In this document: positions 2,212-33,488 of the stretch, piece after piece
Layout of the letters: every line of letters begins with the position of its first letter
How positions within the stretch are numbered: the first letter of the stretch is position 1
From: Nanobdellota archaeon
GTDB lineage: Archaea; Nanobdellota; Nanobdellia; Woesearchaeales; GCA-2686295
Length of the DNA: 48,577 nt
NCBI GenBank assembly: GCA_018819065.1
Contig: JAHJQL010000047.1
Span: 1 to 48,577, forward strand
Direction: 5' to 3'
The notes under the pieces: model-generated
The model's database searches: none
Seen by the model: only the letters and a program-made list of their open reading frames with translations
Told to the model about the DNA's origin: nothing
Program-made: the position numbers and the translations under genes

Positions 2212-3222
2212 ATGAAAAATAAATTTCTTGTTAGTAAGAATTTTTCAAATAATGATTGGAACTTTGTTTTAGATAATTCTTCTGATTCAAATTTTAGTAA
2301 TACAAGAGATTATTATGAATTTGTAACTTCTTTTGGTTACAACCCAATTGTTTTTTGTGTTTATGAAAATAATTCTCCTGTGGCGATAATTAATGGTTTT
2401 TCTTTCAAAGGAAGATTTGGCATTCCTTTTAGACTTAAACTAGGGGATAGGTTTGGTCCTGCAGTTGTAATTATTAATTCTAAAAAAGATGATAATTCGT
2501 TGAAGGTTTTTTGTAAAAACTTTATGCTAGATATCTTTAAAAAGAATTTTTTTTTGTATAAATTCGCTTATCTTCCTTCAGAGTTTGCTGTTGAGTCAAA
2601 ATTTTATTGTAATGTGCACATTGATCTTTCAAAACCTCATAGTATCATCATGAAGAATTTTAAGAAGTCTTGTCGAAACGCCATTGCTCATTCAAAAAGA
2701 CAGTGTGTCAACATAATATCTTCGAGTTCAGAAAATGCTGTTAGAGAGTTATTGTCAAATTCATATTTTTGTAAGACTGATTATAATGATTTATTTGAGA
2801 ACAAATTTTTTTACGAATTATTCAGGAAATTTGCTAAGAAAGGTGGTGCTGAAATCTGGATTGCATATAAAGATGATTATGTCTTGTCTTTAGCCATAAT
2901 TGCTAAGTACAAAGATAAGCTTTCTTTGTGTTTTTTACGTTCAAATTCTCTTGGTAAAAAGCTCAAAGCAAATAACTTATTAATATCAGAGATTGCCAAG
3001 AAATATGCTTGTTCAAATTTTTCAAAGTTTATGATTGGAGGGCTTGGTTTTGATCTCCATGATGAACTGACTGGTTATGGAATGTTTAAAAAGAGTTTTA
3101 ATCCAATCATTCAAAAAGCTCCTTTGATTAAAAGCATAAGTAAATTAGAGTTTCTTGTTAGGTATTATAACTTCTTTTTTAAGAAAAATTTTAATAAAGG
3201 GTTGTTTTTTGATTCAAAATGA
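2212..3222 (+). CDS. FemAB/BioF2-like GNAT-fold protein (peptidoglycan bridge aminoacyltransferase-like)
   Basis: ORF; FemAB-like layout (KSCRNAIAHSKR..., AIIAKYKDKLSLCFLRSNSLGKKLKANNLLISEIAKKY...FMIGGLGF); overlaps the Ddl-like gene by 4 nt. Confidence 0.6.
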   Translation: MKNKFLVSKNFSNNDWNFVLDNSSDSNFSNTRDYYEFVTSFGYNPIVFCVYENNSPVAIINGFSFKGRFGIPFRLKLGDRFGPAVVIINSKKDDNSLKVFCKNFMLDIFKKNFFLYKFAYLPSEFAVESKFYCNVHIDLSKPHSIIMKNFKKSCRNAIAHSKRQCVNIISSSSENAVRELLSNSYFCKTDYNDLFENKFFYELFRKFAKKGGAEIWIAYKDDYVLSLAIIAKYKDKLSLCFLRSNSLGKKLKANNLLISEIAKKYACSNFSKFMIGGLGFDLHDELTGYGMFKKSFNPIIQKAPLIKSISKLEFLVRYYNFFFKKNFNKGLFFDSK

Positions 3223-4265
3223 TTTATTTATCAAATTTGCTCAACAGAGTTTTGTTTGTTCTTTTGAAGTTAAGATTATTTTTTTTTAAATTAGAGTTCA
3301 AAAGACAAAAACGCCAACATGTTAAACTTTCAAATCAAAGGGTTGCTATACTCGTAGATAATGAGCCTGTTGATAGTTTATCTTTTTTGTCACTGGCCAA
3401 AATTGTTCAAAAAATTCTTATAAAAAATGGGGTTGAATCAAAAATTTTATTTGTGGATAAAAAACTCTTTCAGAATCTAAAAAAACACAATATCTCATTG
3501 GTGTTTATTGGTTTTAGTAGAATTTATAGAAAGGAAGGAACTATTCAGGCATTGCTTGATTATTTAGATATTAAGTATGTTGGGTCGAGCCATTTATCAG
3601 TTGCTCTTTGTTTTGACAAGTCTTTATGCAAAAAAATATCTATTGCGCAAGGAGTTAAAGCCCCTAAATTCTTGGAGATTAGACATTTAAAAGAGGTTAA
3701 TATTTCAAAAGTTAAGCAAGAATTAAAATTTCCTGTTATTGTCAAGGGAAATCATAGTTATATAAGCATGGGTTTATCTTATGTGAATGACTCTAAAAGT
3801 CTTTTTTTGGCCGTGGAAGAATGCCTTAGTTTTGATGATTCTGTTTTGATTGAAGAATATATTGATGGGCAAGAAGTGAGTATTGGTGTTATTGGAACTT
3901 TGGACAATCCAAAACCGTTAGGAATTGTTTGTTTGAAGAAGAATACTGTGGTGAGTTTTAAAGATAAGAAAATGGCTTCTATAGAAATTGATTATGATAT
4001 GAAACTCTCAGAAGAAACAAAATTAAGAATTATTAATACTGCCTTGACACTTTTCAAATCTTTTGGGTGTCGTGGTTTTGCAAGGTTTGACTTCATCATT
4101 AAGAAAGGTGAGGTTTATTTTTTAGAAGTGAATGGTATTCCAGGATTATTCAAAGAAAGCCTGATGACAAAATCAGCTGAAATTGCAGGGATGAGTCATG
4201 AGGATTTGATTATGAACATTTTAGTATCTGCCTTGGGGAAAAGTGATTATTTAAGCTTTAAATAG
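3219..4265 (+). CDS. ddl: D-alanine-D-alanine ligase family ATP-grasp protein
   Basis: EGTIQALLDYLDIKYVGSSHLSVALCFDKSLCK, IEEYIDGQEVSIGVIG, FLEVNGIPGLFKES (N-x-x-P-G-x-x-x-S) match Ddl landmarks. Confidence 0.8.
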   Translation: MIYLSNLLNRVLFVLLKLRLFFFKLEFKRQKRQHVKLSNQRVAILVDNEPVDSLSFLSLAKIVQKILIKNGVESKILFVDKKLFQNLKKHNISLVFIGFSRIYRKEGTIQALLDYLDIKYVGSSHLSVALCFDKSLCKKISIAQGVKAPKFLEIRHLKEVNISKVKQELKFPVIVKGNHSYISMGLSYVNDSKSLFLAVEECLSFDDSVLIEEYIDGQEVSIGVIGTLDNPKPLGIVCLKKNTVVSFKDKKMASIEIDYDMKLSEETKLRIINTALTLFKSFGCRGFARFDFIIKKGEVYFLEVNGIPGLFKESLMTKSAEIAGMSHEDLIMNILVSALGKSDYLSFK

Positions 4266-5851
4266 ATTGTTGGGTCTATTGAGTGTTTGTTTTTTCGTAT
4301 TTCAAAGTGCAAATGAGTATAATCATAAACGCTATTATCATTAGGAATGTTTCCACTCCTCCCAACTAGTCCAATTAACAAACCTTTTTTTATCTTTTGT
4401 CCTTTATGGACGAAAATGTTGTTCAAATGAGCATACCAACTCTCACAATTATCATGTTTTATTATTACTGTTTTTCCATACAACTTTTTCACGCCAGAAA
4501 AAATCACTACACCACAATCAACGCTGTAAACTCTTGTGTTTATATTGGCTGGAAAATCTATTCCTTGATGTTCGTTTTTTTTTCTTGAAGCATTAAAGTT
4601 ACCAACTTCAAAATAAGAGTTAATGTTCTTTATTGGTAGTTGCACATCTTTATTGTTCTTGTTTAATCTTAATATTATTCCTTTTTTAAGTTTTGAAATG
4701 ATTATGTTTAAATTTATTTTATTTGACGCTTTAAAGACAATCATATCATTTGGCTTTAGAATCTCAAGAATTTTATTCATTATCTGTTCTAAATCTTCTG
4801 AATAAAATATCTTTTTTTTATCAAAATTTAATTTTAACAGTTCTTTCTTTGTCAGCATAACTATTTTTCCAATCAAAAGAATGTTTTCTGGTTTGATCGT
4901 GGCTAGTTCCTTTGCAATCATTATGTGGAATTCTTTCTCTTTTGATCCTAATTCCAACATATCCCCGAAGACAAGTATTTTTCTGCGTGTTTTGTCTTTA
5001 ACAATTGTTTTTAACATGGCTTTCACAGATGATGGATTTGAATTGTAAGAATCATCAATTAACAAAATGTTTTTATTCAATTTATTTAGTTCCAACCTTC
5101 CTCTAACATTTCTCATAGTTTTTAAGCTTGATATGATTTCTGAATTGCTACAGCCTAGTTTTTTAGCAGCGATGATTGCTCCACTCAAATTTTTTACATT
5201 GTGCTGGCCCACCACTTCTGTTTTGATAAGAATGCTTTCTTTTTTTTGATTGTTATTCAAGAAAAAATTTGTTTCAATCAATTTTTTTTCTTTGATATTC
5301 TTTATTTGATAGTTGGAATCGATGCTTTGGCCGTACGTTATAATATTATAATTCTTGTTTTTTATTAGTTTTTGAAGTTGAACATCTTCTTTGTTGAGTA
5401 TTATTATACCATTGGATTTTAAAGAACTCAGTATTTTTATTTTTTCATTGTAAATATCTAAATCAGAACTGTTAAAGTATTCCCCATGGGCATAACCGAT
5501 TTCTGTGAATATGATGATGTCAGGTTTTATTAGTTGACTGTAAATATTCATATCATTAGGATAATTTATGGCTGCTTCTACAATTAATATCTGGTGTTTG
5601 CTTCTTAATCTGAAAATAACAGACACTAATCTTTGGATATCAGCTTCCAAGGAGTTTTCGTTTAGGATTCTGGTTTTATACTTTTGCTCTAATATTTTTA
5701 TGAGTGCTTCTTTTGTTGTTGTTTTGCCGATGCTTCCAACAATTGCTATCGTTCTTGGTTCAAAAAATCTGTAAATCAGATTTGCTATTAGCGTTACTGG
5801 TCTATGGGTGTAAAGAATTTTTTTAATTTTTTTGAAAACTTTAATTTTCAT
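4247..5851 (-). CDS. murF: Fusion: MurF-like UDP-MurNAc-peptide ligase + C-terminal M23/LytM metallopeptidase domain
   Basis: N-terminal GSIGKTTTKEAL P-loop, SYNSNPSSVKAML, FGDMLELG (MurF hallmarks); C-terminal HQGIDF, YAHL, THLHFEI (M23 zinc/catalytic motifs, about 4250-4573); one uninterrupted ORF. Confidence 0.85.
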   Translation of the reverse strand: MKIKVFKKIKKILYTHRPVTLIANLIYRFFEPRTIAIVGSIGKTTTKEALIKILEQKYKTRILNENSLEADIQRLVSVIFRLRSKHQILIVEAAINYPNDMNIYSQLIKPDIIIFTEIGYAHGEYFNSSDLDIYNEKIKILSSLKSNGIIILNKEDVQLQKLIKNKNYNIITYGQSIDSNYQIKNIKEKKLIETNFFLNNNQKKESILIKTEVVGQHNVKNLSGAIIAAKKLGCSNSEIISSLKTMRNVRGRLELNKLNKNILLIDDSYNSNPSSVKAMLKTIVKDKTRRKILVFGDMLELGSKEKEFHIMIAKELATIKPENILLIGKIVMLTKKELLKLNFDKKKIFYSEDLEQIMNKILEILKPNDMIVFKASNKINLNIIISKLKKGIILRLNKNNKDVQLPIKNINSYFEVGNFNASRKKNEHQGIDFPANINTRVYSVDCGVVIFSGVKKLYGKTVIIKHDNCESWYAHLNNIFVHKGQKIKKGLLIGLVGRSGNIPNDNSVYDYTHLHFEIRKNKHSIDPTIYLKLK

Positions 5852-5854
5852 TTT

Positions 5855-7249: not shown

Positions 7250-7257
7250 TGTCAAGC

Positions 7258-8022: not shown

Positions 8023-8073
8023 GGTCTAAAAAACTTTGCTTGTTGTTATTATTTGTTTTGTTAAACGATGAAT

Positions 8074-8083
8074 TTTATAAATA
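8074..8083 (+). promoter_or_regulatory. TATA box for the GT4 operon
   Basis: TTTATAAATA, about 25 nt upstream of ATG 8108 (leaderless spacing). Confidence 0.55.
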
Positions 8084-8107
8084 CTTTTATCTTTGTCTGT
8101 TTTCAAA

Positions 8108-9241
8108 ATGAAAATCGCCATGGTTTATGATATGATTTACCCTTTTAACGTGGGTGGTGCTGAGGCTAGGAATTACTTGCTTGCAAAAGAGCTTATCAAG
8201 AGAGGTCATGAAGTTCATTTCTTTGGGGCAAAGCTTTGGAAAGGACAGGACGTGATAACCTATGATGGTATTATCATGCATGGTGTTTACACCTCAAAAA
8301 GCTTGTATAAAAACAGCCGAAGAAGCTATGATGAGCCAATAATCTTTGCTTTAAAGCTTATTAGGCCTTTGTTTAGGGAAGAATTTGATCTTGTTGATTG
8401 CACAGCCTTTCCTTTCTTTCACGCGTTTGTGTGTAAGTTATACTCTGTTTTTAAAAAGATTCCTTTGATTTTGACTTGGCATGAGGTTTGGAGTGATTAT
8501 TGGACTTATTACATCGGTTTTAAGGGTTGTTTTGGTCGTTTTATTGAAAAAATAGCTTCTAAGATGTCCAAGAGCCATATAGTGGTTTCTGAAAGGACTA
8601 AACTGAGGCTTTTAATGATAAATAAATCAGCGAAAATCACTGTTGTTTCAAATGCACTCCAATTAGACATTATCAGTTCAGTTCCTAAATCTGAAGAACG
8701 ATACGACTTGATTTTTTGCGGACGACTTCTGCCTCACAAGAATGTTGATTTGTTGATAAAATCTGTTAGAATCTTAAAAGAAGAGTTTCCAAGTATAAGC
8801 TGCTTAATAATTGGTAGTGGTCCTGAGAAAGAAAGGCTTGTTGCTCTGGCAAATAGATTAGGTGTTGATAAAAACGTTGCATTTAAGAATTTTCTCACAA
8901 AACAAGAGGAGGTCTATTCATACTTGAAATCTTCAAAGATTTTTGTGTTCCCGTCAATTCTTGAAGGTTTTGGAATAGTAGTTATTGAAGCAATGGCTTG
9001 CGGCCTACCAGTTGTTGGCGTTAGCCATAAGTGGAATGCTGCTGAGGATATAATAAACGATAACAAAGCAGGTTTTGTGGTTGAGCAGTCACCAATAGTT
9101 GTGGCTGAGAGAATATCTTTTCTTTTAAGGAACAAAAGAACTTATAATAAGATTAGCAAGAACAACTTGTCAAAGTCTAAGAAATACTCTGTTGAAAAAG
9201 TGGCAAGAAGGATTGAAAGAATTTACGAGGGTTTGTTATGA
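8108..9241 (+). CDS. GT4-family glycosyltransferase
   Basis: N-terminal MIYPFNVGGAEARNYLLAKELIKRGHEV; FVFPSILEGFGIVVIEAMACGLPVVG (GT4 EX7E region). Confidence 0.85.
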   Translation: MKIAMVYDMIYPFNVGGAEARNYLLAKELIKRGHEVHFFGAKLWKGQDVITYDGIIMHGVYTSKSLYKNSRRSYDEPIIFALKLIRPLFREEFDLVDCTAFPFFHAFVCKLYSVFKKIPLILTWHEVWSDYWTYYIGFKGCFGRFIEKIASKMSKSHIVVSERTKLRLLMINKSAKITVVSNALQLDIISSVPKSEERYDLIFCGRLLPHKNVDLLIKSVRILKEEFPSISCLIIGSGPEKERLVALANRLGVDKNVAFKNFLTKQEEVYSYLKSSKIFVFPSILEGFGIVVIEAMACGLPVVGVSHKWNAAEDIINDNKAGFVVEQSPIVVAERISFLLRNKRTYNKISKNNLSKSKKYSVEKVARRIERIYEGLL

Positions 9242-10134
9242 TTTCTGTTGTTATTCCTTTCCTTTCAGGCTTTGAAGATTTAAAAGTGTGTATTGCATCT
9301 ATTAAAAAGCAAAGAGTCAAGGTGGAAATAATCATCGTTAATGACTCATCTAAGCCTCTCAGACTGAAAAAAGGTGTTAGAGTCATAGACAATAAAGGTA
9401 CAAAAGGCGCTGCTTATTCAAGAAATATAGGTCTTAAAGAGTCAAAAAACGACCTTGTATTGTTTGTTGACAATGATGTGTTCCTGCAAAGTGGCTGTGT
9501 CAGAAGGCTCTTAGATGAAATTGAAGGTTTTGAAATAGTATTTCCAAAAGTTGTTTATGAAAACAGTGTGCTTATGCACCCAGTTGGCAAAGAGGAAATA
9601 TACCCTCAGATATCTGCTTGTTTCATGATTAAGAAAAGCGCTGTTGAAAAGATGGATTGCTTTTTTGACGAGACTTACAAGATTTATCTTGAGGACGCTG
9701 ATTTCTTCTTAAGAGCAAACATTTTTAGTTTAAAATCATTGTTTGTGAAAGACGCCGTTGCGATTCACAAGCTTAAAGAGTCATACAACGAGATGCGTTT
9801 TTATCTTGAAAACAAAAACCTTTTTTATGGAATCATAAAATTTTTTGGAATCAAAAAGAAAGGTGTTTTGCACCCATTCAATTTGACATCGGTTTTTTCA
9901 AACTATATCTGTGCGTTGTTCAACTTTGACAAGTTTGACTACTCGCATTATAATCGTGGTTTAAGCATATTGACAAAGGCAGAATTGTTGTTTAGAAAAC
10001 ATAAAAAGATAACTGGCAGGAACAGATTGTTTCTTCTTTTTTACATATTCAAAGCGAAGATGTGGGTGATTTCTAACATTGGATTTGTACTTCGAGAAAG
10101 AAGAAAACTGCTTTTTAAAAAACAAGATATATAA
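9238..10134 (+). CDS. GT2-family glycosyltransferase
   Basis: ISVVIPFLSG, IIIVNDSS, AAYSRNIGLKESKNDLVLFVDNDV; 4-nt overlap with the previous gene. Confidence 0.8.
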   Translation: MISVVIPFLSGFEDLKVCIASIKKQRVKVEIIIVNDSSKPLRLKKGVRVIDNKGTKGAAYSRNIGLKESKNDLVLFVDNDVFLQSGCVRRLLDEIEGFEIVFPKVVYENSVLMHPVGKEEIYPQISACFMIKKSAVEKMDCFFDETYKIYLEDADFFLRANIFSLKSLFVKDAVAIHKLKESYNEMRFYLENKNLFYGIIKFFGIKKKGVLHPFNLTSVFSNYICALFNFDKFDYSHYNRGLSILTKAELLFRKHKKITGRNRLFLLFYIFKAKMWVISNIGFVLRERRKLLFKKQDI

Positions 10135-10157
10135 ATGAGTTTTATTTATTTTTAAAT

Positions 10158-10919
10158 ATGGGGTTTTCAAATCGTTTTTCTCTAATAAAACAATTAACAA
10201 TCACAGGCTTTAAACTTCGGTATAGAGGATCTGTCCTTGGATACTTTTGGTCTTTGCTTAACCCTCTTTTGTTGTTATTAACCCTTTACATAGTGTTTGC
10301 TTTGTTCATGAAAATTAATATCCCAAATTATCCACTATACTTGTTGATTGGAATCCTTACTTGGAACTTTTTGTCAGAAGGAACAGTTATGAGCATAAAC
10401 TCCATGGTTTCAAATCGTGAGCTTATAAGAAAGATGAAGTTTCCAACTCAAAGCATAATAATAAGTTCGTGCGTGGCTTCCTTTGTGGTGTTCTTAATAA
10501 ACCTTTTAATCTTCTTTTTACTAATGGTGATTTTGAAAGTGAATATATATTTCACCGCTGTTGTATTGCCGTTTTATCTTATAGAACTTTTCATGTTGGT
10601 GCTTGGATTGTCATTATTTTTATCTGCTTTGTATGTTCGGTATAAGGATGTAATTCATATTTGGAACTTTTTCCTGCTTTTAGGATTTTGGATAACACCT
10701 ATTGTTTATTCCACTGATTTAGTCCCATTTGAGTACTTGAGATTTTACATGCTCAACCCATTAGCTAGAATAATTGTTGATATGAGGGGTGCTTTGCTTG
10801 ATAACTTTATACCAACCCTTAAGAATATTTTCATAACGACAATCATTAGTATTTTAACTTTTGTTGTGGGGTACGTTTTTTTCAAGAAATCATCAAAGAG
10901 GTTTGCAGAGGAAATATGA
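10158..10919 (+). CDS. ABC-2 polysaccharide export permease (Wzm/TagG type)
   Basis: FKLRYRGSVLGYFWSLLNPLLLLLTLYIVF; six predicted TM segments; precedes a Wzt-like ATPase. Confidence 0.85.
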   Translation: MGFSNRFSLIKQLTITGFKLRYRGSVLGYFWSLLNPLLLLLTLYIVFALFMKINIPNYPLYLLIGILTWNFLSEGTVMSINSMVSNRELIRKMKFPTQSIIISSCVASFVVFLINLLIFFLLMVILKVNIYFTAVVLPFYLIELFMLVLGLSLFLSALYVRYKDVIHIWNFFLLLGFWITPIVYSTDLVPFEYLRFYMLNPLARIIVDMRGALLDNFIPTLKNIFITTIISILTFVVGYVFFKKSSKRFAEEI

Positions 10920-12424
10920 ATGTTGCTATAAAGTTAAATGCTGTGACGAAGAATTTTAGCTTTTATGCTAAAAGCGAGAATACGCTTTTTCATTCTTTTA
11001 AGTCAATCTTCAAAAGAGATAAACACGTTGTTATATCGGCTATTGACAGATTATCTTTAGAAATAAACACAGGAGAAATAATTGGAATTATCGGACCTAA
11101 TGGATGCGGAAAAACGACCCTGCTTAAAATCGTTGGTGGAATATTATCTCCAACCAAGGGAACTGTTAAGGTGATGGGAAAAACACTTCCTTTGCTGGAA
11201 CTTGGAACTGCATTTCAAGAAAGCTTAAGTCTGAAAGATAACATTTTTTTATATGGAAGTATTCTTGGATTATCAACTGAAACACTCAAGAAACGTTTAA
11301 CCTACATAATTGATTTTTCTGGCATTAGACAAACAGACACTAACATCAAAAATTTCTCTAGTGGGATGAAATTAAGACTTGCATTTTCAATAGCTAAGGA
11401 AGTGGATGCTGATATTTATCTTTTAGATGAAATATTAACTGTTGGTGATGAAGGGTTTCAGAAAAAATGTTTTGTCTTCTTTGAGAATTTAAAGAGGCAG
11501 GGAAAAACCATTCTTCTTGTGACGCACGATTTAAGTTTGGTGGCTCGTGAATGTGATAGGGCTATACTCTTAGATAACGGTAAGCTGGTTGCGGATGGAG
11601 AATCCTCATCTATGGTGAAAAAGTATCTTTCTATAATTATAAACAATGATTTAAAATTAGTAAAGAAACAGCTGAGAGTTAATAAGCCGGTAAAAGAATT
11701 GTCCTTGGCATTTTCAAAACTAAGAATGCTTTTTGAGCAATTATTAATGTTTAAACAATTCAGAAACATCTCAAACACAATACTCCCTTTTTATAATTTA
11801 GAAACGCTTATAAAAAACAGAGAAGCTAAAAAATTGTTTTTTGGAGAATTAAGAGCTTTACTAAACTTCTGCTATGAGCATGCCGATGAGAAAGAAAAAT
11901 TGTTTATTAAAAACCTTGTCAAGAATGCTTTACAAGAAGAATTGTTTCCTTTGGAAAATAACGAGATGATGAAAATAGTGGTTGAAGATTCTAAGACTGT
12001 CTTTGATAAAGAGATTAAAATAAAAAAAGTTTTATTCAAAGACGAAATGGGTGTGGATGGCAATGTTTTTGAAACTGGAAAGAGTATGAGTATTGAAATA
12101 ATATATCAGGCTCTTAAAGATGTAAAAAGGCCTATGTTTGGAATAGCAATATTTGATTCAACAGACCATCTAATTACAGGACCAAACACGACTTTTTATA
12201 ACGTCACTTCAGAATCTATTAAAAATAGTGGTGTTGTTACGTATGTTATTAAATCCTTGCCGTTGCTTAAAGGAACATATAAAGTATCAGTGTCAATATA
12301 CGATGAGTTGGGATCTAAACCATTTGACTATCATGAAAAAAAGTACGGTTTTAAAGTTGTGGAAAAAGATATAAAAAGCTTGGGTGGAATAATAAACATG
12401 GATGGAAGGTGGATTTACAAATGA
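10916..12424 (+). CDS. ABC transporter ATPase (Wzt/TagH type) with C-terminal Wzt-like carbohydrate-binding domain
   Basis: GPNGCGKTTLLK, FSSGMKLRLAFSIA, YLLDEIL; beta-rich C-terminus (KSMSIEIIYQALKDVKRPMFGIAIFDSTDHLI) as in Wzt_C. Confidence 0.85.
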   Translation: MNVAIKLNAVTKNFSFYAKSENTLFHSFKSIFKRDKHVVISAIDRLSLEINTGEIIGIIGPNGCGKTTLLKIVGGILSPTKGTVKVMGKTLPLLELGTAFQESLSLKDNIFLYGSILGLSTETLKKRLTYIIDFSGIRQTDTNIKNFSSGMKLRLAFSIAKEVDADIYLLDEILTVGDEGFQKKCFVFFENLKRQGKTILLVTHDLSLVARECDRAILLDNGKLVADGESSSMVKKYLSIIINNDLKLVKKQLRVNKPVKELSLAFSKLRMLFEQLLMFKQFRNISNTILPFYNLETLIKNREAKKLFFGELRALLNFCYEHADEKEKLFIKNLVKNALQEELFPLENNEMMKIVVEDSKTVFDKEIKIKKVLFKDEMGVDGNVFETGKSMSIEIIYQALKDVKRPMFGIAIFDSTDHLITGPNTTFYNVTSESIKNSGVVTYVIKSLPLLKGTYKVSVSIYDELGSKPFDYHEKKYGFKVVEKDIKSLGGIINMDGRWIYK

Positions 12425-13569: not shown

Positions 13570-13626
13570 AGAAAATTTAAATATAAATGAGTTTTAAGGA
13601 ATTATTATGAAGAAAAGGTGTTCCTA

Positions 13627-14388: not shown

Positions 14389-14449
14389 GTTATTCTCTCT
14401 TTAACAATTTTTATAAATAAGACTAAATTGTGTTGATTTATTGTTTAAA

Positions 14450-16608: not shown

Positions 16609-16609
16609 A

Positions 16610-19418: not shown

Positions 19419-19436
19419 ATTATTATTTTACAATGT

Positions 19437-21722: not shown

Positions 21723-21727
21723 TTGTG

Positions 21728-22705: not shown

Positions 22706-22706
22706 T

Positions 22707-24578
22707 TCAAACCTCTACAAAGCATGGAAGAAGGCATGGCTCTTCACATTCTAAGACTAGTATCCTTGTTTTTTCTGCTTTTTTAGAATGCCATACGTGC
22801 TCTAACTTATTTTTTATATTTCCATACGCTGTTTTGCAGGCGGTGATGTTGCCATCATTTGATACCAGCATCGTTTTTGTAGCTGCCAGACAACAAACAT
22901 CATTTGCTGTTAGCTTGTTTTGGAAGTATTTTTTTACTAGTTCAAGTTCTCTTTGTGAATTACTGATTATTTGTGGGTGCTCTTTTTTCATATTCTTCAA
23001 ATTCTTAATTGTATTCTCTAAAACTTTTAGTCTGTTATTCGGAATCCAGAATTTTGATTCTTCCCTTTTATACATTGCAAGGTTGTTTGCGAGTAATGGT
23101 TGGAACTGAACACTATTGGCTTTAAGGCCAATCATTGTTCTTGCCAATTCTTCAAGCTCCTCTAAGTTGTTGTTCATTATTATGCTTATTGTTCCATAGT
23201 TCATGTTTGGATAATCTTCCTTTAGTGCATTTAGCCTCTTTAAAGTGTTCATTGTTTTCTCATATAGACCTTTTTGTCCTCTGATATAATCATGAGTTGT
23301 TGCTTTTACTCCATCAATTGATATGGTTAGTGAGATGTTGTTGTTTATTAGATAAGGCTTTAGTTTTTCAAAAGTTTTTTCATCAAAAGTCCCATTTGAC
23401 AATATCCCTACATTTGAACTTCTTTTCTTGACAAATTCAAGTATCTCAAATATGTCAGCCCTTATAAGAGGTTCTCCGCCTGATAAAACCATGTGTTTCA
23501 CACCCCAAGTGATGCCTTGTTCTAGAACTTTTATTATTTCGCTTGTCGTAAGCTCTTTTTTTGTGTCTTTCACAATGTCGCACATCTTGCATCTCAAATT
23601 GCACCTGTGCGTGCAATCTATTATTAGAAAGTCAGGTTTTTTTACCGTATTCCTATTCTGCTGAAATTCATTTATGTTTCCAAACATGTAGAATAATTTG
23701 TGGAGGCAGAAATAGTTGAAAAAAATCATTTTTTCAATAGCAGAGATATCTTTCTCTTTCTGAGTTAATTTGTTTAGTTGGAATATTCCAAAGAAAGGTG
23801 TTTCTAGTATTCCTTTAGCCATTGTTAGATAAAAAAGCAGCTTATTTTTTGTATTAATATTCAATAGTAATGGGTGCTCTGGATACATTTTTTTAACAAG
23901 CATGTTTCCTATTCCATAATGATAGTTGCGTTTTAAGAAACTTTTAAGACTAGGATTTAGATTATGAGTTACAATTATGCTTTCATCATATAACATCTTT
24001 ATTTTGTTTTTTTGCAGTCGCCATCCAAACTCAAGATCTTCTCCGCCTGGAAATGGGAACTTCTCATCGAAAGTAAATTGTTCTAATACTTTTTTTTTTA
24101 AAGAAATGTTGGATGTTGGAAAATAAATCACTCTTTCTTTTTCTTCAAAGCGTTGTTTTATGGATGAATTTGTGAGGTGTTGCGTGATGAATCCTGTTCT
24201 GTTGTTTTTATCGACTCTTGTTAATCCGCCTATGACTTGTACAGTTCTGTTTTTTTTATGTGCTCGTAAGACGCTTTTAATCCAGTCCTTGTCAGGGATG
24301 CAGTCATCATCTGTAAAACAAATTATGTCTCCTTTTGCAATCTTAGCTCCAAGATTTCTGGCGGCTGCAGGACCTTTGTTATCTTGTCTTAAATACTTTA
24401 AATGTTTATGTTTCTTGCAGAGGCTCATAACTATTTTTTTGGTCTGATCTGTTGAGCCATCGTCAACAATGATGAGTTCTAATTCTTCGTTAATTTTTTG
24501 TTTGAGAATGTTGTTTATGCACATCTTTAGGTCATGACTTCTGTTGTGTGTTGGTATTATTATGGAAATCATTTTCAT
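22707..24578 (-). CDS. Fusion: GT2 glycosyltransferase + radical SAM/SPASM domain
   Basis: N-terminal ISIIIPTHNRSHDLKMC...IIVDDGSTDQT...GPAAARNLGAKIAKGDIICFTDDDC; C-terminal DCTHRCNLRCKMCDI, SGGEPLIRADIF, CEEPCLLPC; one ORF. Confidence 0.85.
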   Translation of the reverse strand: MKMISIIIPTHNRSHDLKMCINNILKQKINEELELIIVDDGSTDQTKKIVMSLCKKHKHLKYLRQDNKGPAAARNLGAKIAKGDIICFTDDDCIPDKDWIKSVLRAHKKNRTVQVIGGLTRVDKNNRTGFITQHLTNSSIKQRFEEKERVIYFPTSNISLKKKVLEQFTFDEKFPFPGGEDLEFGWRLQKNKIKMLYDESIIVTHNLNPSLKSFLKRNYHYGIGNMLVKKMYPEHPLLLNINTKNKLLFYLTMAKGILETPFFGIFQLNKLTQKEKDISAIEKMIFFNYFCLHKLFYMFGNINEFQQNRNTVKKPDFLIIDCTHRCNLRCKMCDIVKDTKKELTTSEIIKVLEQGITWGVKHMVLSGGEPLIRADIFEILEFVKKRSSNVGILSNGTFDEKTFEKLKPYLINNNISLTISIDGVKATTHDYIRGQKGLYEKTMNTLKRLNALKEDYPNMNYGTISIIMNNNLEELEELARTMIGLKANSVQFQPLLANNLAMYKREESKFWIPNNRLKVLENTIKNLKNMKKEHPQIISNSQRELELVKKYFQNKLTANDVCCLAATKTMLVSNDGNITACKTAYGNIKNKLEHVWHSKKAEKTRILVLECEEPCLLPCFVEV

Positions 24579-24603
24579 CTTTTATCACGTGATGTGTCAA
24601 TAA

Positions 24604-25470: not shown

Positions 25471-25544
25471 TCTATCTTCTTGTTATTCTTTCTTTTTTAA
25501 ATTTTTAGAAAAGTTTTAATAATTATAAGATACAAGCAGTCTTT

Positions 25545-27533
25545 ATGTCTCTTTGGAAAAGCAAGTCTTTTAGGTTGTTCTTGACCTTTCTTATTATATA
25601 CTCTGTTTTTGCAAATATAGATGGTTGGAATGAAAACTCTAGACTTGACTTGACACGGGCCATTGTTGACGAGGGAACTTTTAAGATAGACAAGTATGCC
25701 AATAATACAGGCGATCGGGCATTTTATAATGGTCATTACTACTCCGACAAGTTTCCAGGCTCCTCGTTTATCGCGGTGCCTTTCTACTTTGTTTATAAAT
25801 ACACTTTTGGAACCCCTGATATTAGCACTGGCTTATTTGAGTTGAATTCTGACCCAGCTTACTTTTTCATGGTGTTTTTTATCATCATGTTTACCTCGGC
25901 TCTTTTTTCAGCTCTCACAGTTGTTTTGATATTCAAGATTTCAAGGTATTTTACTAATATCTTGCTTCATCGTTATCTCGTAGCTTTTGCTTATGGTCTT
26001 GGAACAATCGCGTTTTCTCAAGCAACTTTTTTTATGGGTCACGCAATTGCTACTTTTTTTGCTTTTGCATCTTTTTATCTTATTTTTAAGATGAGACAAG
26101 AAAAAATAGGTGACTATTACTTTTTATCTGGTTTTCTTGGAGGATTAGCATTTTTAGTTGATATATACGCTTTAGCGGTCGTTTTTATTTCTTTAATACT
26201 TGTTTTGGTCACGAAGAAGTTTAATTTAATTTTCAAATTCTTATGTGGTTTTGCTGTGTTTGTGTTTGTCCTTTTCTTGTATAATTATGCTTGCTTTGAC
26301 AATCCATTAAGCTTCAGCTATCAAAATGTTGAAGGTATTAATTTCGGACCATGGTACAATGGTATAGCTGTTTATAGTAATTGCCATTTTTATGGAAATG
26401 ATTTTCCTATTATTGTGCGATACTTTGGTAAGAACCGCTGTCACGGTGTGATTGAATCATATTATCTTTTAGATTATAATATTCTTCTTAACGAAACAAT
26501 AAATGGATTGATTACAAAAGAAGTTGTGGAAATCAAGTTTGGAAATGATGGGTTGGTTGAATACTGGATTACTAAGAATTATCTATATTCGGATAATTTC
26601 TCTAAAATTTTTTATACAAAAACAACTGGCAATTATCTTGTTTACATTCAGTCAGGTTCTTTTTGGAATCTTGTAGGAAATATTAGTTCTAAAGATAATT
26701 ATATCTATGAGCACAACATGGATTCTAATTTCGTGACGCGCTCTGATTGTCCATTTTGGCCTAATAATCAGGTGAATAATACATTTTCATGTACTATTAC
26801 TGATTACTCTGAGAACATGCGCGGAATATTCTTCAAAATAGACATCTCTGGAACAATGTCTGTGTCTGACTCGCGAGCCACTAAGTATTCATCAGAAATT
26901 ATAAAGTCATACTCTGATGTGACTAGTCATATGAAACATCATAACCATACTTTCAATATTATTCTGAGACTTTTATTCTACCCTTACAGAGGATTGTTCT
27001 TTTTCAGCCCGATTCTCCTTGTGTCGCTATTTGGAATTTGGCATATGTTCAGAAGATTTAAACTAGAGACACTACTGATAGTTTTTTCGACAGCAGTCGT
27101 CTTGGTCTTTCATTCGTTTAACAAGTTCTGGTGGAGCGGATCGTCTTTTGGTCCTAGACATCTTCTGATATTGGTGCCATTCCTTATTTTGCCACTAATG
27201 TTTGTTCTGAAGAAGAAAAAGATTGTTTTTTTCTTTTTTTTCTTATCTATTATAATAAGTTTTGTCGGACTTCAAATTTTAGAGCAGACCGTCATTGTTG
27301 TTGGAGAACATATAAGTATAAGCTCAGAATATAATAACAATTTTGTTACTTTTAAACTCATTGGCAACCCATTATTCATTCATTATTTTCCTCTGTTTCT
27401 TGAGAATGGTCCAAGAAGTGTTGTGTTGGAAGGTCTCATGCAAAGGACTTTCTTTCCTTTTTTAAACGTTTTTGTACTGCTAGTTGTAATATTCTTGTTA
27501 TGGTCACATTACTTTTTTAGGAAATATATTTAA
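25545..27533 (+). CDS. Large polytopic membrane protein, GT-C glycosyltransferase-like
   Basis: RLDLTRAIVDEGTFKIDKYANNTGDRAFYNGHYYSDKFPG; many TM helices; shares RGL(F)xxSP and WxGxSFGxR motifs with the 577 ORF. Confidence 0.7.
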   Translation: MSLWKSKSFRLFLTFLIIYSVFANIDGWNENSRLDLTRAIVDEGTFKIDKYANNTGDRAFYNGHYYSDKFPGSSFIAVPFYFVYKYTFGTPDISTGLFELNSDPAYFFMVFFIIMFTSALFSALTVVLIFKISRYFTNILLHRYLVAFAYGLGTIAFSQATFFMGHAIATFFAFASFYLIFKMRQEKIGDYYFLSGFLGGLAFLVDIYALAVVFISLILVLVTKKFNLIFKFLCGFAVFVFVLFLYNYACFDNPLSFSYQNVEGINFGPWYNGIAVYSNCHFYGNDFPIIVRYFGKNRCHGVIESYYLLDYNILLNETINGLITKEVVEIKFGNDGLVEYWITKNYLYSDNFSKIFYTKTTGNYLVYIQSGSFWNLVGNISSKDNYIYEHNMDSNFVTRSDCPFWPNNQVNNTFSCTITDYSENMRGIFFKIDISGTMSVSDSRATKYSSEIIKSYSDVTSHMKHHNHTFNIILRLLFYPYRGLFFFSPILLVSLFGIWHMFRRFKLETLLIVFSTAVVLVFHSFNKFWWSGSSFGPRHLLILVPFLILPLMFVLKKKKIVFFFFFLSIIISFVGLQILEQTVIVVGEHISISSEYNNNFVTFKLIGNPLFIHYFPLFLENGPRSVVLEGLMQRTFFPFLNVFVLLVVIFLLWSHYFFRKYI

Positions 27534-27643
27534 ACTATTTTTTTTGGATTCTTTGAGAGAATAATGCTGGTTTTATATTTTTATCAGCCAAGGTATCCAA
27601 ATACTCTGCTTTTTTTGATATTTATGGTTTGTTAATTATTCTT

Positions 27644-27653
27644 TTTATATAAA
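27644..27653 (+). promoter_or_regulatory. TATA box upstream of the truncated Hel308-like gene
   Basis: TTTATATAAA; predicted TSS near 27675, just before ATG 27686. Confidence 0.5.
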
Positions 27654-27685
27654 CATTTTTTGTTTTCTTTCCACAAACTTATTAA

Positions 27686-29299
27686 ATGCCTTGTTCATGT
27701 CTTCTTTTCATGGAAAAAGTTCTTTTTATTCCGCAGACTCAGTCTGATTCTGTCATTAGTATAATTGATGATACTTTAAAGAAGAACAAGCAAGTCTTAG
27801 TCTTTGTCAACACTAAACGAGGTGCTGAGTCTCAAGCTGAAAAAGTTGCTATGAGGATAAAGACTGTTAATTCTCATTTGGAAAAACTTTCGCAAGATGT
27901 ATTAAAAGCAGTTTCCAGTCCAACAAGACAGTGCAGAAGGCTTTCTTTATGTGTCAAAAGAGGTGTTGCTTTTCATCATTCAGGGCTTACTTCAAGACAG
28001 CGGGAGTTGGTTGAGGATAACTTTCGCTTGGGAATAATAAAGGTTATTTGCGCAACGCCGACTCTTGCAATGGGCATTAACATGCCAGCTTTTAGAGTCA
28101 TCATTCGTGATCTGAAGCGTTATGGTGGGTCTTGGGGTATGCAGGATATTCCTGTTCTTGAGTATGAACAGCAATCTGGAAGGGCGGGAAGACCTGGAAA
28201 AGAGGATTATGGCGAGGCTATTTGCATTGCAAAAACACAGTCTGAATTTGATAATATTTTTGAAAAATATGTGAATGGTTTTCCTGAAGAAATATTTTCT
28301 AAACTCGCAGTAGAGCCCGTTTTAAGGACTCACATATTAAGCTTGATTGCGAATGAGTTTGTGAATGATAAGAATTCATTGTTTGAATTCTTTGACAAGA
28401 CTTTTTACGCCTATCAGTATGAAGACTTAAACAAGCTTCACAATATTCTTGAAAAAATAATAGGTCTTCTTTCAGAATGGGAGTTTATCAAGAATTCAGG
28501 AGAATCAAATGATTTTGTCTCAGCAGATAACCTTGGAATTGAAAATTATCAAGCTACAATGATTGGTAGAAGAGTTTCTGAATTATACCTTGACCCATAC
28601 ACCGCATTCTTCATAATTACTTGTTTGCGAAAAGCAACAGGGAAGAAAACTGTGGCTTTTTCTTATCTTCACATGCTCTCAAACACCTTTGAGATTAGAC
28701 CTCTTTTAAGAGTTAAAGTTTCAGAGTTTGAAGATGTTCAGGGCAAGGTGCTTCCTTACACTGAATTGTTGCTTGAGGATGAGCCTTCTGTTTTTGATGA
28801 GTCTTACGAGACATTTCTAAACTCTGTGAAAACTGCTCTCTTCATGCATGACTGGGTTGAAGAGAAAGATGAGGAGTACTTGCTTGAAAACTATGATGTT
28901 AGGCCTGGAGAGATTCATGCAAAGCTTGAGATTGCTGACTGGCTGCTTTACTCCGCTGAAGAGCTTGCAAGGATGATGAAATTCCAATTCCTGCTAAAAG
29001 ACGTTTCAAAACTTCGATTCAGGCTAAAGTACGGCGTAAAAGAAGAATTGCTGCCCTTGTTAAAGCTCAAAGGTGTTGGAAGAGTTAGAGCCAGAAAAAT
29101 GTATAATAATAAACTTCAAAATCTTACAGATATCAAGAACGTTGATATAACAACCCTCTCACAGTTGATAGGAAAAAGCGTTGCCATATCAATTAAGAAA
29201 CAGTTAGGGCAAGAGTTTGATCCTAAGAAAGTCGTTGTTAAGGAAAACAAGAGAAAGGGGCAGATATCATTAAAGGACTATGGAAAGAACACAAAATAA
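27686..29299 (+). CDS. Hel308/Ski2-family helicase lacking the N-terminal RecA1 domain
   Basis: RecA2 motifs (VLVFVNTKRGAESQA, FHHSGLTSRQRELVED, CATPTLAMGINMPAFRVIIRD, YEQQSGRAGRPG) plus ratchet and HhH C-terminus (GVGRVRARKMYNNKLQNLTDI); no Walker A or DExH. Confidence 0.85.
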   Translation: MPCSCLLFMEKVLFIPQTQSDSVISIIDDTLKKNKQVLVFVNTKRGAESQAEKVAMRIKTVNSHLEKLSQDVLKAVSSPTRQCRRLSLCVKRGVAFHHSGLTSRQRELVEDNFRLGIIKVICATPTLAMGINMPAFRVIIRDLKRYGGSWGMQDIPVLEYEQQSGRAGRPGKEDYGEAICIAKTQSEFDNIFEKYVNGFPEEIFSKLAVEPVLRTHILSLIANEFVNDKNSLFEFFDKTFYAYQYEDLNKLHNILEKIIGLLSEWEFIKNSGESNDFVSADNLGIENYQATMIGRRVSELYLDPYTAFFIITCLRKATGKKTVAFSYLHMLSNTFEIRPLLRVKVSEFEDVQGKVLPYTELLLEDEPSVFDESYETFLNSVKTALFMHDWVEEKDEEYLLENYDVRPGEIHAKLEIADWLLYSAEELARMMKFQFLLKDVSKLRFRLKYGVKEELLPLLKLKGVGRVRARKMYNNKLQNLTDIKNVDITTLSQLIGKSVAISIKKQLGQEFDPKKVVVKENKRKGQISLKDYGKNTK

Positions 29300-30539
29300 T
29301 AACTTGCAAGGTTTTGGTAATATAGTAATTTTTTGTTTTTTTTTGTTTTTTACAATCCTTCTTTCTTGGCCTTTATTTTTTAACCTTGATTCTTATTTGT
29401 TACCGTCTTACCTTGAAACAATACATAGTCGCGGGTATATTGATACTCAGGCAGTTGTTGATAGAGTTAATAATACGGTTGCAGGGTTATTAACTGGTGA
29501 TTTTTATCCTCTTTTTGCATATACTGAGCGTGGTGAAATATCAAAGAGTTATCTTGTATTCTCAACATTAGGTATCTTAGTTTTTGGTATTAATGAAGTT
29601 GTAGCACACAATTTATTTTTCTTATTTTCTTTATTTCTATCGGGTTTGTTCATGTTCTTTTTTACAAAAGAGTTAATTAAGAATAAATGGGCTGCTTTGT
29701 TTTCAGGTTTTTTATATATGTCATCAAGCTATCTTTTTTCTGAATACTTCTTAGGTCATTCAAACCTCTGGCAGCTACAATGGATTCCTATCATATTTTT
29801 ATTTTTGGAAAGGATATTATCAGGAAAGAGGAGTTTTAAAGAGTATGTTTGTTTAGGATTATTTTTAGGAATTCAGACAATTTCTGCAAGTTATTATATT
29901 ATATATCTGACTTTCATAATTCCAATATACATTATTTTTCGAAATCATGGAGTTTTAGTTAATAAAAAATTTTGGGTTGGAATGTTTTTGGTTTTGATAA
30001 TTGTGCTTGTTGTTTCATCCCCTTTTCTTTTTTTTAGATTGGAGCGAATAAACCATTCTTCTAATATTAGATCACTTGAACAAAACTTAACACCTAATCG
30101 GATATTGATTTCTTTTTCTGACTTAATATCTAGCAAACGATCATTTTCCTTAAGTGTTGTTTCTTTGATTTTGTCTGTTCTTTCAATGGCGTTTTTATTT
30201 AATAAGCGCAGTCATCAAGATTTAAGAAAGTATCTCCCTTTTATTTTTTTCTTATTTTTCATTCCTCTTTGTATGTTAGGACCATTTTCAAAATTTGCTC
30301 CTTATTATTGGCTGTACACTTTTTGGCCTTTGATGGATTTTTTAAGAGTACCTAAAAGGTTGTTTCCATTTTTTCTTTTATCAGTATCCATATTAGCAAG
30401 TTATACTTTTTTCAGATTAATTAATAATAAAAAAATTCTCTTCATTTTCGGACTTTTCTTATTCTTGATTATAATTATATTCTTGACTTATATAGTTCCA
30501 TCTCCTGCATTGATGAACTATCACTTATTCACTCCTTGA
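29280..30539 (+). CDS. Polytopic membrane protein, GT-C-like
   Basis: About ten hydrophobic segments; overlaps the helicase 3' end by 20 nt. Confidence 0.6.
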   Translation: MERTQNNNLQGFGNIVIFCFFLFFTILLSWPLFFNLDSYLLPSYLETIHSRGYIDTQAVVDRVNNTVAGLLTGDFYPLFAYTERGEISKSYLVFSTLGILVFGINEVVAHNLFFLFSLFLSGLFMFFFTKELIKNKWAALFSGFLYMSSSYLFSEYFLGHSNLWQLQWIPIIFLFLERILSGKRSFKEYVCLGLFLGIQTISASYYIIYLTFIIPIYIIFRNHGVLVNKKFWVGMFLVLIIVLVVSSPFLFFRLERINHSSNIRSLEQNLTPNRILISFSDLISSKRSFSLSVVSLILSVLSMAFLFNKRSHQDLRKYLPFIFFLFFIPLCMLGPFSKFAPYYWLYTFWPLMDFLRVPKRLFPFFLLSVSILASYTFFRLINNKKILFIFGLFLFLIIIIFLTYIVPSPALMNYHLFTP

Positions 30540-30604
30540 TTACAAAAAGGATGGTTCTGTTTTCTAGAAAATTTTTAAAGGACTCTTTGTTATTAGTTAT
30601 TGTT

Positions 30605-32236
30605 ATGAAAAAGAAGGTTGATATTTCAATAGTCTTGCCTGTATATAATGAAGAAGTTATTCTTGAGAGGAGCGTTCTTGATTTATATTCTTATTTGAAA
30701 AACTCTGATTTGACAAACAATTTTGAAATTGTGTTGTGTTTGAATGGTTGTACAGATAAATCTGTGGTTATAAGTAATAAACTATCAGATAAGTTAAAAG
30801 AAGTATGTGTTCTTATTTCTAAGAAGAAAGGGGTTGGTGTTGGTATTTTGCTTGGTTTGAAGAAAGCAAGATATGAATATATTTTAACGATGGGTGTTGA
30901 TATTCCTTTTGGCTTATCCATAATTGAGGAATCAATATGTGCAATTCAAAAAACGTGTGCAGATATTATTATACAATCAAAAAATCATTCAAAGTCAAAT
31001 GTGAAAGGATCATTTAAAAGGAAGTTCTTTTCTTTTTGTTATAATAAATTTATCAATCTAATTTATGATTTGCATATCAAAGACACCCAAGGACCTTTTT
31101 TAATAAGAAAGAACTCTTTAAATAAAATTATTCTATTCATAAATTCTTCAACAAGTTTTATCAAAACACAAATCTTAATATACTCTGTTTTGTTTAATAT
31201 GAAGATGGTGGAGATTCCTGTGAATTATGTTATAAGGAGTGATTCAAAGATAAACTTTTTTATTGAAGGATTGAAGATGTTTTTTGAATCTCTAAAAGAA
31301 TTTTTCAAGTTTGGAAATGTTTCTATAATTAAGAATTTATTAAGATATGATTCTTCGTCCTATAATTATCCTTTATCAAATGTTACAACTTTAAAAATAG
31401 GTGGTAACGCAACATTTTTTTTTAAACCAAGAACGATTAATGATATTAAAACCATTATTTTATTTTCAAAAAAGAATAAAATTCCGCTTTTTATGTTGGG
31501 TGCAGGGAGTAACGTGTTGTTTTGTGATGATGGTTTTAATGGTGTTGTTGTAAGTTTTGAAAAACAATTCAGTTTTATAAATAAGTTATCGGATGAAAAA
31601 ATAGAGGTTGGTGGGGGGACTCTTGTTTCTGATGTTTTATCTTTTTGTTTTGAAAATGATTTTGGTGGATTAGAATTTCTAAGTCTTATTCCTGGCACGA
31701 TTGGAGGAATTGTTAGTATGAATGCAGGGGCTTTTGAAGAAGAAATTGGAACTTATGTTTTTGAAGTAAAAGCCATTGATTTGAATGGAAAAGAATTTGT
31801 TTTTTCAAAAAAAGCCGCTGATTTTAGTTATCGTTCATCAATTTTTTTGAAGAAAAAACTAATTATAACTTCAGTAGTTTTTAATCTTAAAAAGAATGAT
31901 AAATCTGAAATCAAAAAAAAGATGTTTGCGTTCTCTAAAAAAAAGAAAGAGACCCAACCATTATTAGAATTATCAGCTGGTTGTATATTTAAAAATCATC
32001 CTAATATTTCTGCTGGAGAATTAATAGAAAAAGCTGGTCTTAAAGGATTAAGAATTGGTGATGCACAAGTTTCTAAAAAGCATGCAAATTTTATTATCAA
32101 CAAAGGTTCTGCCACCAGTAAAGATGTGTCTTTGTTAATAAAAAAAGTGAGGGCTGATGTTTATAAGCAGTTTGGTGTGCGATTAGAATTAGAACTTATA
32201 ATTGTCGATAAAAATGGAAGATACATTAATTATTGA
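30605..32236 (+). CDS. murB: Fusion: GT2 (DPM1-like) glycosyltransferase + UDP-N-acetylenolpyruvoylglucosamine reductase (MurB)
   Basis: GT2: ISIVLPVYNEEVILERSV...TMGVDIPFG. MurB: TTLKIGGNATFF, LGAGSNVLFCDDGFNGVVV, GLEFLSLIPGTIGGIVSMNAGAFEEEIG, FSYRSSIF, SAGCIFKNHP, GDAQVSKKHANFIINKGSATSKDV. Confidence 0.9.
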   Translation: MKKKVDISIVLPVYNEEVILERSVLDLYSYLKNSDLTNNFEIVLCLNGCTDKSVVISNKLSDKLKEVCVLISKKKGVGVGILLGLKKARYEYILTMGVDIPFGLSIIEESICAIQKTCADIIIQSKNHSKSNVKGSFKRKFFSFCYNKFINLIYDLHIKDTQGPFLIRKNSLNKIILFINSSTSFIKTQILIYSVLFNMKMVEIPVNYVIRSDSKINFFIEGLKMFFESLKEFFKFGNVSIIKNLLRYDSSSYNYPLSNVTTLKIGGNATFFFKPRTINDIKTIILFSKKNKIPLFMLGAGSNVLFCDDGFNGVVVSFEKQFSFINKLSDEKIEVGGGTLVSDVLSFCFENDFGGLEFLSLIPGTIGGIVSMNAGAFEEEIGTYVFEVKAIDLNGKEFVFSKKAADFSYRSSIFLKKKLIITSVVFNLKKNDKSEIKKKMFAFSKKKKETQPLLELSAGCIFKNHPNISAGELIEKAGLKGLRIGDAQVSKKHANFIINKGSATSKDVSLLIKKVRADVYKQFGVRLELELIIVDKNGRYINY

Positions 32237-33488
32237 ATCAAAAGAGAGTAATATTTCAGGTGAATTAGTTATTGTTATTCCTGGTTCAAAAAATGCAGTT
32301 CTTCCTATGCTTGCTAGTTCAGTACTTATATCTAATGAAGTGGTGTTAAGAAATGTTCCATTCTTAGATGATGTCAAAAACATGGTTTTGATTCTTGAGT
32401 CTTTGGGTGCAAAGATTTCTTGGGAGAGACACGTCTTGAAAGTTAATTGTTCTAACATTAAAGATTTAGAGCTTTCTCGTGATTTTGTTAGCAAGTTGAG
32501 AGCTTCTTTTTTGGTTTTTGGACCTTTGATTGTGAGAAAAGGCAAAGCAACTATTGTAAAGCCGGGTGGTTGTTCTATTGGTTTAAGAAAGATAGATATA
32601 CATTTGGATGGATTGAGACTATTTGGAATATCTATAGAAGAAAATAATGTTATAAAGGGTTTTTTAAAGGAATCTTCACCAATAAATTTTTATCTCAGAT
32701 TTCCTTCAGTTGGTGCTACTGAGCATTTGTTATCTGTTGCTTCAAGTATTAAGGGTGTTTCAAAGTTAGAAAATGCTGCAATAGAACCTGAAGTTATTGA
32801 TTTTGTTAACTTCTTAAAATGCGCGGGTGCTGATATAAAGCAAAATAACAGAACATTTGTAATTAAAGGTCAAGATAAACTTTCTTTGGTTGATTATACT
32901 ATCATGGCTGATCGTATTGTTGCAGCAACTTGGATAATTGCATCCATAATTAAAAAAAGATCATTGAAGTTATATAATATTAATCCTGAAGTTTTAGATT
33001 CTTTTTTATTAGTTTTATGTGAGTGTGGTGTTGATGTTACTTTGGAGAAAGATTCTATTCATATTAAATTAGTTCGTGAATTAAAACCTTTTAGTATTAA
33101 AACAGGTCCTTTTCCTGCTTTTCCTTCGGACATCCAACCTTTCATGGCAGTCTTGGCTTGTACTATTGCTGGAGAGAGTACTATTGAGGAAAATGTTTTT
33201 GAAAACCGATTTGAATACGTTGGTGAATTGAGAAAAATGGGTGCTAATATTTCTTTGTCAAAGAACAAATTAGTTATAAGAGGTCCTTGTAATCTTAAAG
33301 GTGCAGCTGTTCAAGGTACTGATTTGAGGGGAACTGCTGCTTTAGCACTTGCATCGTTGATTGCTGATGACAAAACTATATTAAAAGGGATGGATGTTAT
33401 AAACAGAGGTTATGAAGACTTTCCTTTTTTGTTAAAAACTTTTGGCGCAGAAGTTAAAAAAATGAGAGGGGAGGACGAGTATCATTGA
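32214..33488 (+). CDS. murA: UDP-N-acetylglucosamine 1-carboxyvinyltransferase (MurA)
   Basis: PGSKNAVLPMLAS, KLRASFLVFGPLI, KPGGCSIGLRKIDIHLDGL (catalytic Cys loop), FPSDIQPFMAVLACTIAGESTIEENVFENRFEYVGELRKMGA, DLRGTAALALASL, NRGYEDF; 23-nt overlap with murB. Confidence 0.93.
   Translation: MEDTLIIESKESNISGELVIVIPGSKNAVLPMLASSVLISNEVVLRNVPFLDDVKNMVLILESLGAKISWERHVLKVNCSNIKDLELSRDFVSKLRASFLVFGPLIVRKGKATIVKPGGCSIGLRKIDIHLDGLRLFGISIEENNVIKGFLKESSPINFYLRFPSVGATEHLLSVASSIKGVSKLENAAIEPEVIDFVNFLKCAGADIKQNNRTFVIKGQDKLSLVDYTIMADRIVAATWIIASIIKKRSLKLYNINPEVLDSFLLVLCECGVDVTLEKDSIHIKLVRELKPFSIKTGPFPAFPSDIQPFMAVLACTIAGESTIEENVFENRFEYVGELRKMGANISLSKNKLVIRGPCNLKGAAVQGTDLRGTAALALASLIADDKTILKGMDVINRGYEDFPFLLKTFGAEVKKMRGEDEYH

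Follow-up and report, generated by a model that had tools for sequence, protein, structure and literature searches.

The 48,577-nucleotide contig JAHJQL010000047.1 of a Nanobdellota archaeon (Woesearchaeales; assembly GCA_018819065.1), which we analysed over its whole length and refer to as the window, carries genes for two bacterial-type enzymes of muramic acid synthesis, MurA and MurB, in a surface-glycan locus that also holds MurF-type, D-Ala-D-Ala-ligase-like (Ddl-like) and Fem-type enzymes. The contig is C32 of an archaeal metagenome-assembled genome (MAG), whose 93 contigs add up to 1,521,731 bases, with a completeness of 95.5% and a contamination of 0.9%. The genomes compared carry G-numbers, with G000 denoting the window's own genome, and stretches of relatives' DNA carry L-numbers; the samples comprised 288 genomes of the window's order and 371 genomes of the phylum. 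The original prediction, made from the sequence alone, had assigned genes for MurA, MurB, MurF, a Ddl-like protein and a FemAB-like protein to this stretch, and profile matches located all five where they had been placed. The archaeal gene content of the locus includes NMD3, an archaeal Hel308 domain 4 and Ogg.

The MurA gene (plus strand; open reading frame (ORF) 32202-33488, likely start ATG 32214) encodes a protein that scored 408 bits against the TIGR01072 equivalog model (cut-off 392.7) and retained the catalytic set of Lys22-Asn23, Arg91, Cys115 (the cysteine of the PGGC motif), Arg120, Asp305, Arg371 and Arg397; the catalytic motifs were kept in every archaeal MurA copy that we aligned. 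MurB forms the C-terminal part of a fusion protein (plus strand; ORF 30536-32236, likely start ATG 30605) whose N-terminal part is a family 2 glycosyltransferase (GT2) domain. It scored 244 bits against the TIGR00179 equivalog model (cut-off 144.5) and kept the FAD motif and the catalytic Arg and Glu, with Cys in place of Ser229, a replacement also seen in many of the bacterial MurBs aligned. The envelope locus of this archaeon thus holds authentic MurA and MurB, accompanied by enzymes of the MurF, Ddl and Fem types, as had been predicted, and the catalytic residues, whose loss the prediction had named as grounds for refutation, are in place in MurA and MurB. These features of the sequence strongly support the view that the two are genuine, apparently intact bacterial-type muramic-acid enzymes. 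A single archaeal origin of MurB was neither shown nor rejected by its tree (approximately unbiased test, p 0.30 with seven archaeal rows and 0.40 with six family rows).

Strong MurA matches were found in six members of the window's family (G000, G109, G144, G221, G041 and G168) and in G005 among the 288 genomes of the order, and MurA lay next to MurB in seven of these seven. Two further genomes came from the phylum sample: G329, with a broken MurA, and G389, which belongs to another order of the same class and has its MurA (L196 3-1109) close to archaeal RpoA''. The family MurAB pairs are of two types, between which MurA is approximately 35-39% identical: type I (G000, G221 and G041) has Hel308 and NMD3 as its neighbours, whereas type II (G109, G144 and G168) occupies other loci. 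All family copies are in or beside glycan genes except that of G221, where the contig ends at MurB. The window comes from a MAG, and the order does include a case of bacterial contamination, a bacterial-looking mur contig in G111; a chimeric assembly or bacterial contamination is nevertheless a very improbable explanation of the window. The Hel308 and NMD3 neighbours of MurAB recur in the independently assembled G221 and G041, the contigs that bear MurAB in G109, G144 and G168 are archaeal, the G389 gene has its archaeal RpoA'' neighbour, and base composition shifts only mildly along the window. The window is not a chimera, as five relatives of its family also have MurAB in the company of archaeal genes. 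The G111 contig itself (C4; L077/L078) carries bacterial-looking MurC, MraY, FtsW-like, MurG and UppS genes binned into an archaeal MAG, and represents a hazard for surveys; its MraY match was discarded as an archaeal gene because the contig looks bacterial.

The peptide-type enzymes of the window include a fusion protein (4247..5851, minus strand) that joins an M23 peptidase to a MurF-type Mur ligase without its N-terminal domain. Its match to TIGR01143 (230.5 bits, not reaching the cut-off of 288.6) began at model position 64, indicating that the N-terminal UDP-binding domain is absent; in the structure model, residues 1-15 are unstructured and are followed by a single helix. In bacterial Mur ligases, it is the N-terminal domain that binds uridine. 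The invariant MurF residues were kept in the ATPase and C-terminal domains, and the ligase part gave a high-confidence model with MurF as its best fold match. The M23 zinc motifs (HQGID and HLH) are intact, and the model of the M23 part was poor because relatives were lacking in the alignment. None of the best 80 bacterial MurF matches in the alignment search with MurF-M23 ran through the M23 part, and only two of the 371 phylum-sample genomes, G000 and G005, contained the fusion. Possession of the fusion by these two genomes links the window to G005, although the MurF tree put both fusions on long branches and did not resolve their position.

The Ddl-like ATP-grasp ligase (3219..4265, plus strand) matched PF07478 (Dala_Dala_lig_C) with 121 bits and kept the C-terminal ARFDF and LEVN motifs; its N-terminal part has diverged, and its best score against the curated Ddl models fell below the cut-off (179.7 versus 243 bits). 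The FemX/FemAB-like aminoacyl transferase (2212..3222, plus strand) gave a Pfam Acetyltransf_6 match of 23 bits, which is weak alone, and is 30% identical to the FemX-like protein of a mur cluster in G005; a joint profile of these two homologues matched only FemX in the PDB, weakly (E 0.0012). The Ddl-like and FemX-like genes appear real yet divergent. The enzyme steps originally assigned to the locus hold for MurA and MurB, and were too literal for MurF, which has lost the domain for the UDP-MurNAc-peptide, and for the Ddl-like protein with its diverged N-terminal part. GC content at third codon positions (GC3) was lower in the genes of 29280-33488 and in several genes at 2.2-8 kb than in most genes in between, which hints at, and does not prove, a related acquisition of the two groups.

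The nearest solved relatives of the GT2 domain fused to MurB were dolichyl-phosphate mannose (DPM) synthase, GtrB and ArnC, and its assignment to a polyprenyl-phosphate-type family is supported; the GT2-MurB fusion is conserved in G221. Overlapping the fusion gene is a plus-strand gene (29280..30539) for a multi-membrane protein of approximately nine membrane segments, which we propose to be a lipid-phosphate-sugar-dependent transferase; its comparison with a PTPS-related membrane protein of G005 revealed no similarity. A membrane-anchored sulfatase/phosphotransferase-family protein (33495..34877, plus strand; PF00884, 164 bits) is encoded in the MurA operon, and the gene order MurB-MurA-sulfatase recurs in G041. 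Also on the plus strand are a multi-membrane putative glycosyltransferase of the LA_3751 family (25545..27533; NCBIfam NF047440, E 3.7e-16, below cut-off), which has homologues in G109 and G144, in both cases within the MurAB locus, and another multi-membrane protein (460..2169; approximately 11 predicted membrane segments) that may be a glycosyltransferase, given a weak NCBIfam LA_3751-family match (E 0.024). The plus-strand genes of 8093..12424 encode a GT4 and a GT2 glycosyltransferase, an ABC-2 permease and a Wzt ATPase, a set for polysaccharide synthesis and export, and the same set directly adjoins MurAB in G168 (L035).

Searches of the G000 genome, of which approximately 4.5% is unseen, found no MurC, MurD or MurE (the sole other Mur-ligase match being FolC-like), no member of the MraY/WecA family, no penicillin-binding protein (PBP) transpeptidase and no GT51. 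The single MurJ-family match (43 bits) was rejected as a murein flippase, as it looks like a general polysaccharide flippase. Pseudomurein enzymes were not found either: the pMurD2 model gave 55 bits against a cut-off of 550, and the MraY family had no member. In the other family members, the only Mur-ligase matches were of FolC-like length. Because MurC/D/E, MraY/WecA, GT51 and PBP transpeptidase were not found, a full murein pathway in G000 is not supported, and neither is the suggestion of a full wall with its missing genes elsewhere in this genome; G000 agrees better with the alternatives in the original prediction, namely a wall-like glycan or a reduced muropeptide.

A near-complete murein-type gene set was found in G005, of the same order, and is probably a more important find than the window locus. 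Contig C2 of this genome (L038/L039) carries MurC, a FemX-like gene, MurF-M23, MraY, MurG, MurB and MurA, with GT51 and a flippase adjoining MurC. MurA (445 bits, cut-off 392.7) and MurB (236 bits, cut-off 144.5) exceeded their cut-offs, as did MurF-M23, which is full length here (369 bits, cut-off 288.6); MurC (274 bits), MraY (147 bits) and MurG (225 bits) were all below curated cut-offs. Contig C7 (L079 12031-13473) encodes a MurE in which the motif is DNPR, as is typical of diaminopimelate- (DAP-) type enzymes, near archaeal DnaG (480 versus a cut-off of 300), TopoVI A and B and a universal archaeal KH protein. Neither MurD nor a PBP transpeptidase was found in searches of the G005 genome. 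A DUF4015 putative glycosyl hydrolase is encoded between MurC and GT51 of the C2 cluster (L038 18236-19267).

GT51 was found in 17 of the 288 genomes of the order. Class A PBP-like proteins occur in four genomes of the window's genus, G109, G144, G204 and G221 (L168, L169, L170 and L172), with SxxK-, SxN- and KTG-type motifs readable in the copies that are long enough, and the genes of G144, G204 and G221 have an archaeal neighbourhood (EF-2, adenylate kinase and Ndk). In G010, a complete genome in a single contig, a PBP1A (L166 337-2328) scored 582 against a subfamily cut-off of 508.75, and no Mur ligase was found. The presence of GT51 proteins in the order does not by itself show murein synthesis, because the PBP-bearing G010 is without a Mur ligase.

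The best explanation of the whole, which in our judgement has about an even chance of being correct, is that the product of the locus is a surface glycan with muramic acid in it, and not a murein sacculus, in an archaeon of the DPANN type. MurA and MurB would convert UDP-N-acetylglucosamine (UDP-GlcNAc) to UDP-N-acetylmuramic acid (UDP-MurNAc), a step that the sequences strongly support. The GT2 domain fused to MurB may then place MurNAc onto polyprenyl phosphate, and the multi-membrane transferase encoded beside it may hand the sugar on to an extracellular polymer; the remaining polymer would be built by the GT4 and GT2 enzymes and exported by the ABC transporter. In the weakest part of the proposal, the MurF-like, Ddl-like and FemX-like enzymes would extend the lactyl carboxyl by amino acids or a dipeptide, the MurF-like ligase would act on a lipid- or polymer-linked muramyl group and not on a UDP-MurNAc-peptide, as MurT does, and the M23 domain would trim or edit the attached amino acids. 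Such a linked substrate is a natural guess because the window ligase has lost its uridine-binding domain and because MurT/GatD, which acts on lipid I/II, does not use UDP-linked precursors (PMC6085368). Several observations weigh against this explanation. The step to lipid-phosphate-linked MurNAc has no direct support, and the DAD of DPM synthase is replaced by GVD in the GT2 domain. Family searches with the 29280-30539 protein, to which a GT-C role would fall, gave no match, and its structure model was too poor for use (mean pLDDT, the predicted local distance difference test score, of 50.5). Moreover, the peptide module (MurF-M23, Ddl-like and FemX-like) stands 25 kb away from MurAB in the window and, judged by Mur ligases, occurs in no other family member that has MurAB.

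It is also conceivable, though we consider it unlikely, that the lineage has a true murein-like wall, of which the window holds part of the pathway, the rest being unassembled or carried out by unrecognised enzymes. The presence of MurA, MurB, MurC, MurE, MurF-M23, MraY, MurG, FemX-like and GT51 genes on archaeal contigs of G005 argues for such a wall, as do the MurF-M23 fusion common to G000 and G005 only and the class A PBP-like proteins that four members of the window's genus encode. However, G000, at 95.5% completeness, is without MurC/D/E, MraY, GT51 and PBP, the other family members have only FolC-like Mur ligases, the PBP-bearing relatives (one of them a complete genome) are without Mur pathway ligases, and the window MurF has no domain for the UDP-precursor. 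A further reading, which we think rather improbable, is that MurAB do no more than provide a variable surface polysaccharide with a plain sugar, UDP-MurNAc or its enolpyruvyl intermediate, and that the MurF-M23, Ddl-like and FemX-like enzymes constitute an unrelated module, for example one making or modifying a small peptide. This would be consistent with the occurrence of MurAB without Mur ligases in five family members, with the different loci of the two MurAB types, with the 25 kb between the two modules of the window and with the precedent for MurNAc in bacterial surface glycans; it is opposed by the low GC3 common to both modules and by G005, in which MurF-M23 and the FemX-like gene are clustered with MurA and MurB.

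As to G005 itself, we suggest tentatively, and with somewhat more doubt than belief, that its lineage makes a MurNAc-based, DAP-containing murein-like polymer by a pathway that has no MurD, a MurF-peptidase fusion, a FemX-like enzyme, GT51 and no PBP transpeptidase, and that the window's genus has a reduced derivative of it, in which muramyl-peptide units are carried on a surface glycan.

Compared with the bacterial peptidoglycan precursor pathway (MurA-F, Ddl, MraY and MurG), the window has genuine MurA and MurB and relatives of MurF, Ddl and FemX, but G000 is without MurC/D/E, MraY, GT51 and PBP, its MurF is truncated and fused to M23, and its MurB is fused to GT2. Pseudomurein of the Methanobacteriales and Methanopyrales likewise involves Mur-type ligases acting on the surface polymer of an archaeon; its pathway, however, employs neither MurA nor MurB and has ligases of its own (pMurC, pMurE and others), whereas the window combines MurA and MurB with a MurF-type ligase. 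MurT/GatD, the lipid II amidotransferase, is a Mur-ligase relative with a lipid-linked and not a UDP-linked substrate (PMC6085368), as we propose for the window MurF, but the window ligase is nearest to MurF in sequence and fold, has no GatD nearby and is fused to an M23 peptidase. Multi-component transmembrane glycosylation (GtrB/CsbB, a flippase and a GT-C enzyme) offers a precedent (PMC8035078) for a polyprenyl-phosphate-type GT2 beside a multi-membrane protein; in the window, by contrast, GT2 is fused to the maker of its presumed sugar donor, and both the GT-C partner and a flippase are putative. MurNAc outside murein is known from bacterial surface glycans, being a constituent of O-antigens, lipooligosaccharides and capsules of some Gram-negatives (PMC4515632); those bacteria already make UDP-MurNAc for murein, whereas the MurAB of G000 apparently serve the glycan alone.

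Several other features of the window lie apart from these pathways. The ORF at 27686-29299 encodes only the C-terminal part of Hel308, without the DEAD domain; as a stand-alone C-terminal ORF recurs in G041 and, in two pieces, in G221, a split Hel308 is suggested for the window's family. Seven radical SAM proteins in total are encoded at 5.8-24.6 kb, and the gene at 22707-24578 fuses a family 2 glycosyltransferase to a radical SAM/SPASM enzyme. A 531-residue protein (46783-48378) contains two Thy1 stretches and is apparently a tandem ThyX. At 267-540, a tRNA called as 'Stop (tta)' is followed by a second, intron-bearing tRNA-like sequence; the first was rejected as a suppressor, as it looks intron-bearing.

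In the literature searched, papers on DPANN archaea have reported murein-lytic transglycosylases and no precursor synthesis (PMC8204110, PMC9723730), and peptidoglycan hydrolases of archaea, M23 domains in Nanoarchaeia among them, have been described as weapons against bacteria (PMC12352652). A study of pseudomurein treats the Mur ligases of the Methanobacteriales and Methanopyrales, and its main text includes neither DPANN archaea nor a muramic-acid route (PMC11915815). Our literature search, outside which most subscription papers and preprints fell, turned up neither MurAB loci in archaea nor a cluster like that of G005, and the novelty of both is provisional for that reason.

The analysis confirmed the original observation and supported its interpretation in part; the locus is neither ordinary nor an artefact, with genuine archaeal MurAB in a surface-glycan locus and a near-complete murein-type set in a relative. 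Textbooks treat muramic acid, the hallmark sugar of bacterial walls, as a marker of bacteria, and to our knowledge pseudomurein, the known archaeal counterpart of murein, does not contain it. Intact archaeal MurA and MurB, together with the G005 gene set, would imply that wall chemistry has passed between the domains piecemeal and on more than one occasion. They make it testable whether the surface of some small archaea is built from, or decorated with, muramic acid, and they bear on the use of muramic acid as a bacterial biomarker, on interactions between such archaea and bacteria, and on the effects that MurA inhibitors may have on archaea.

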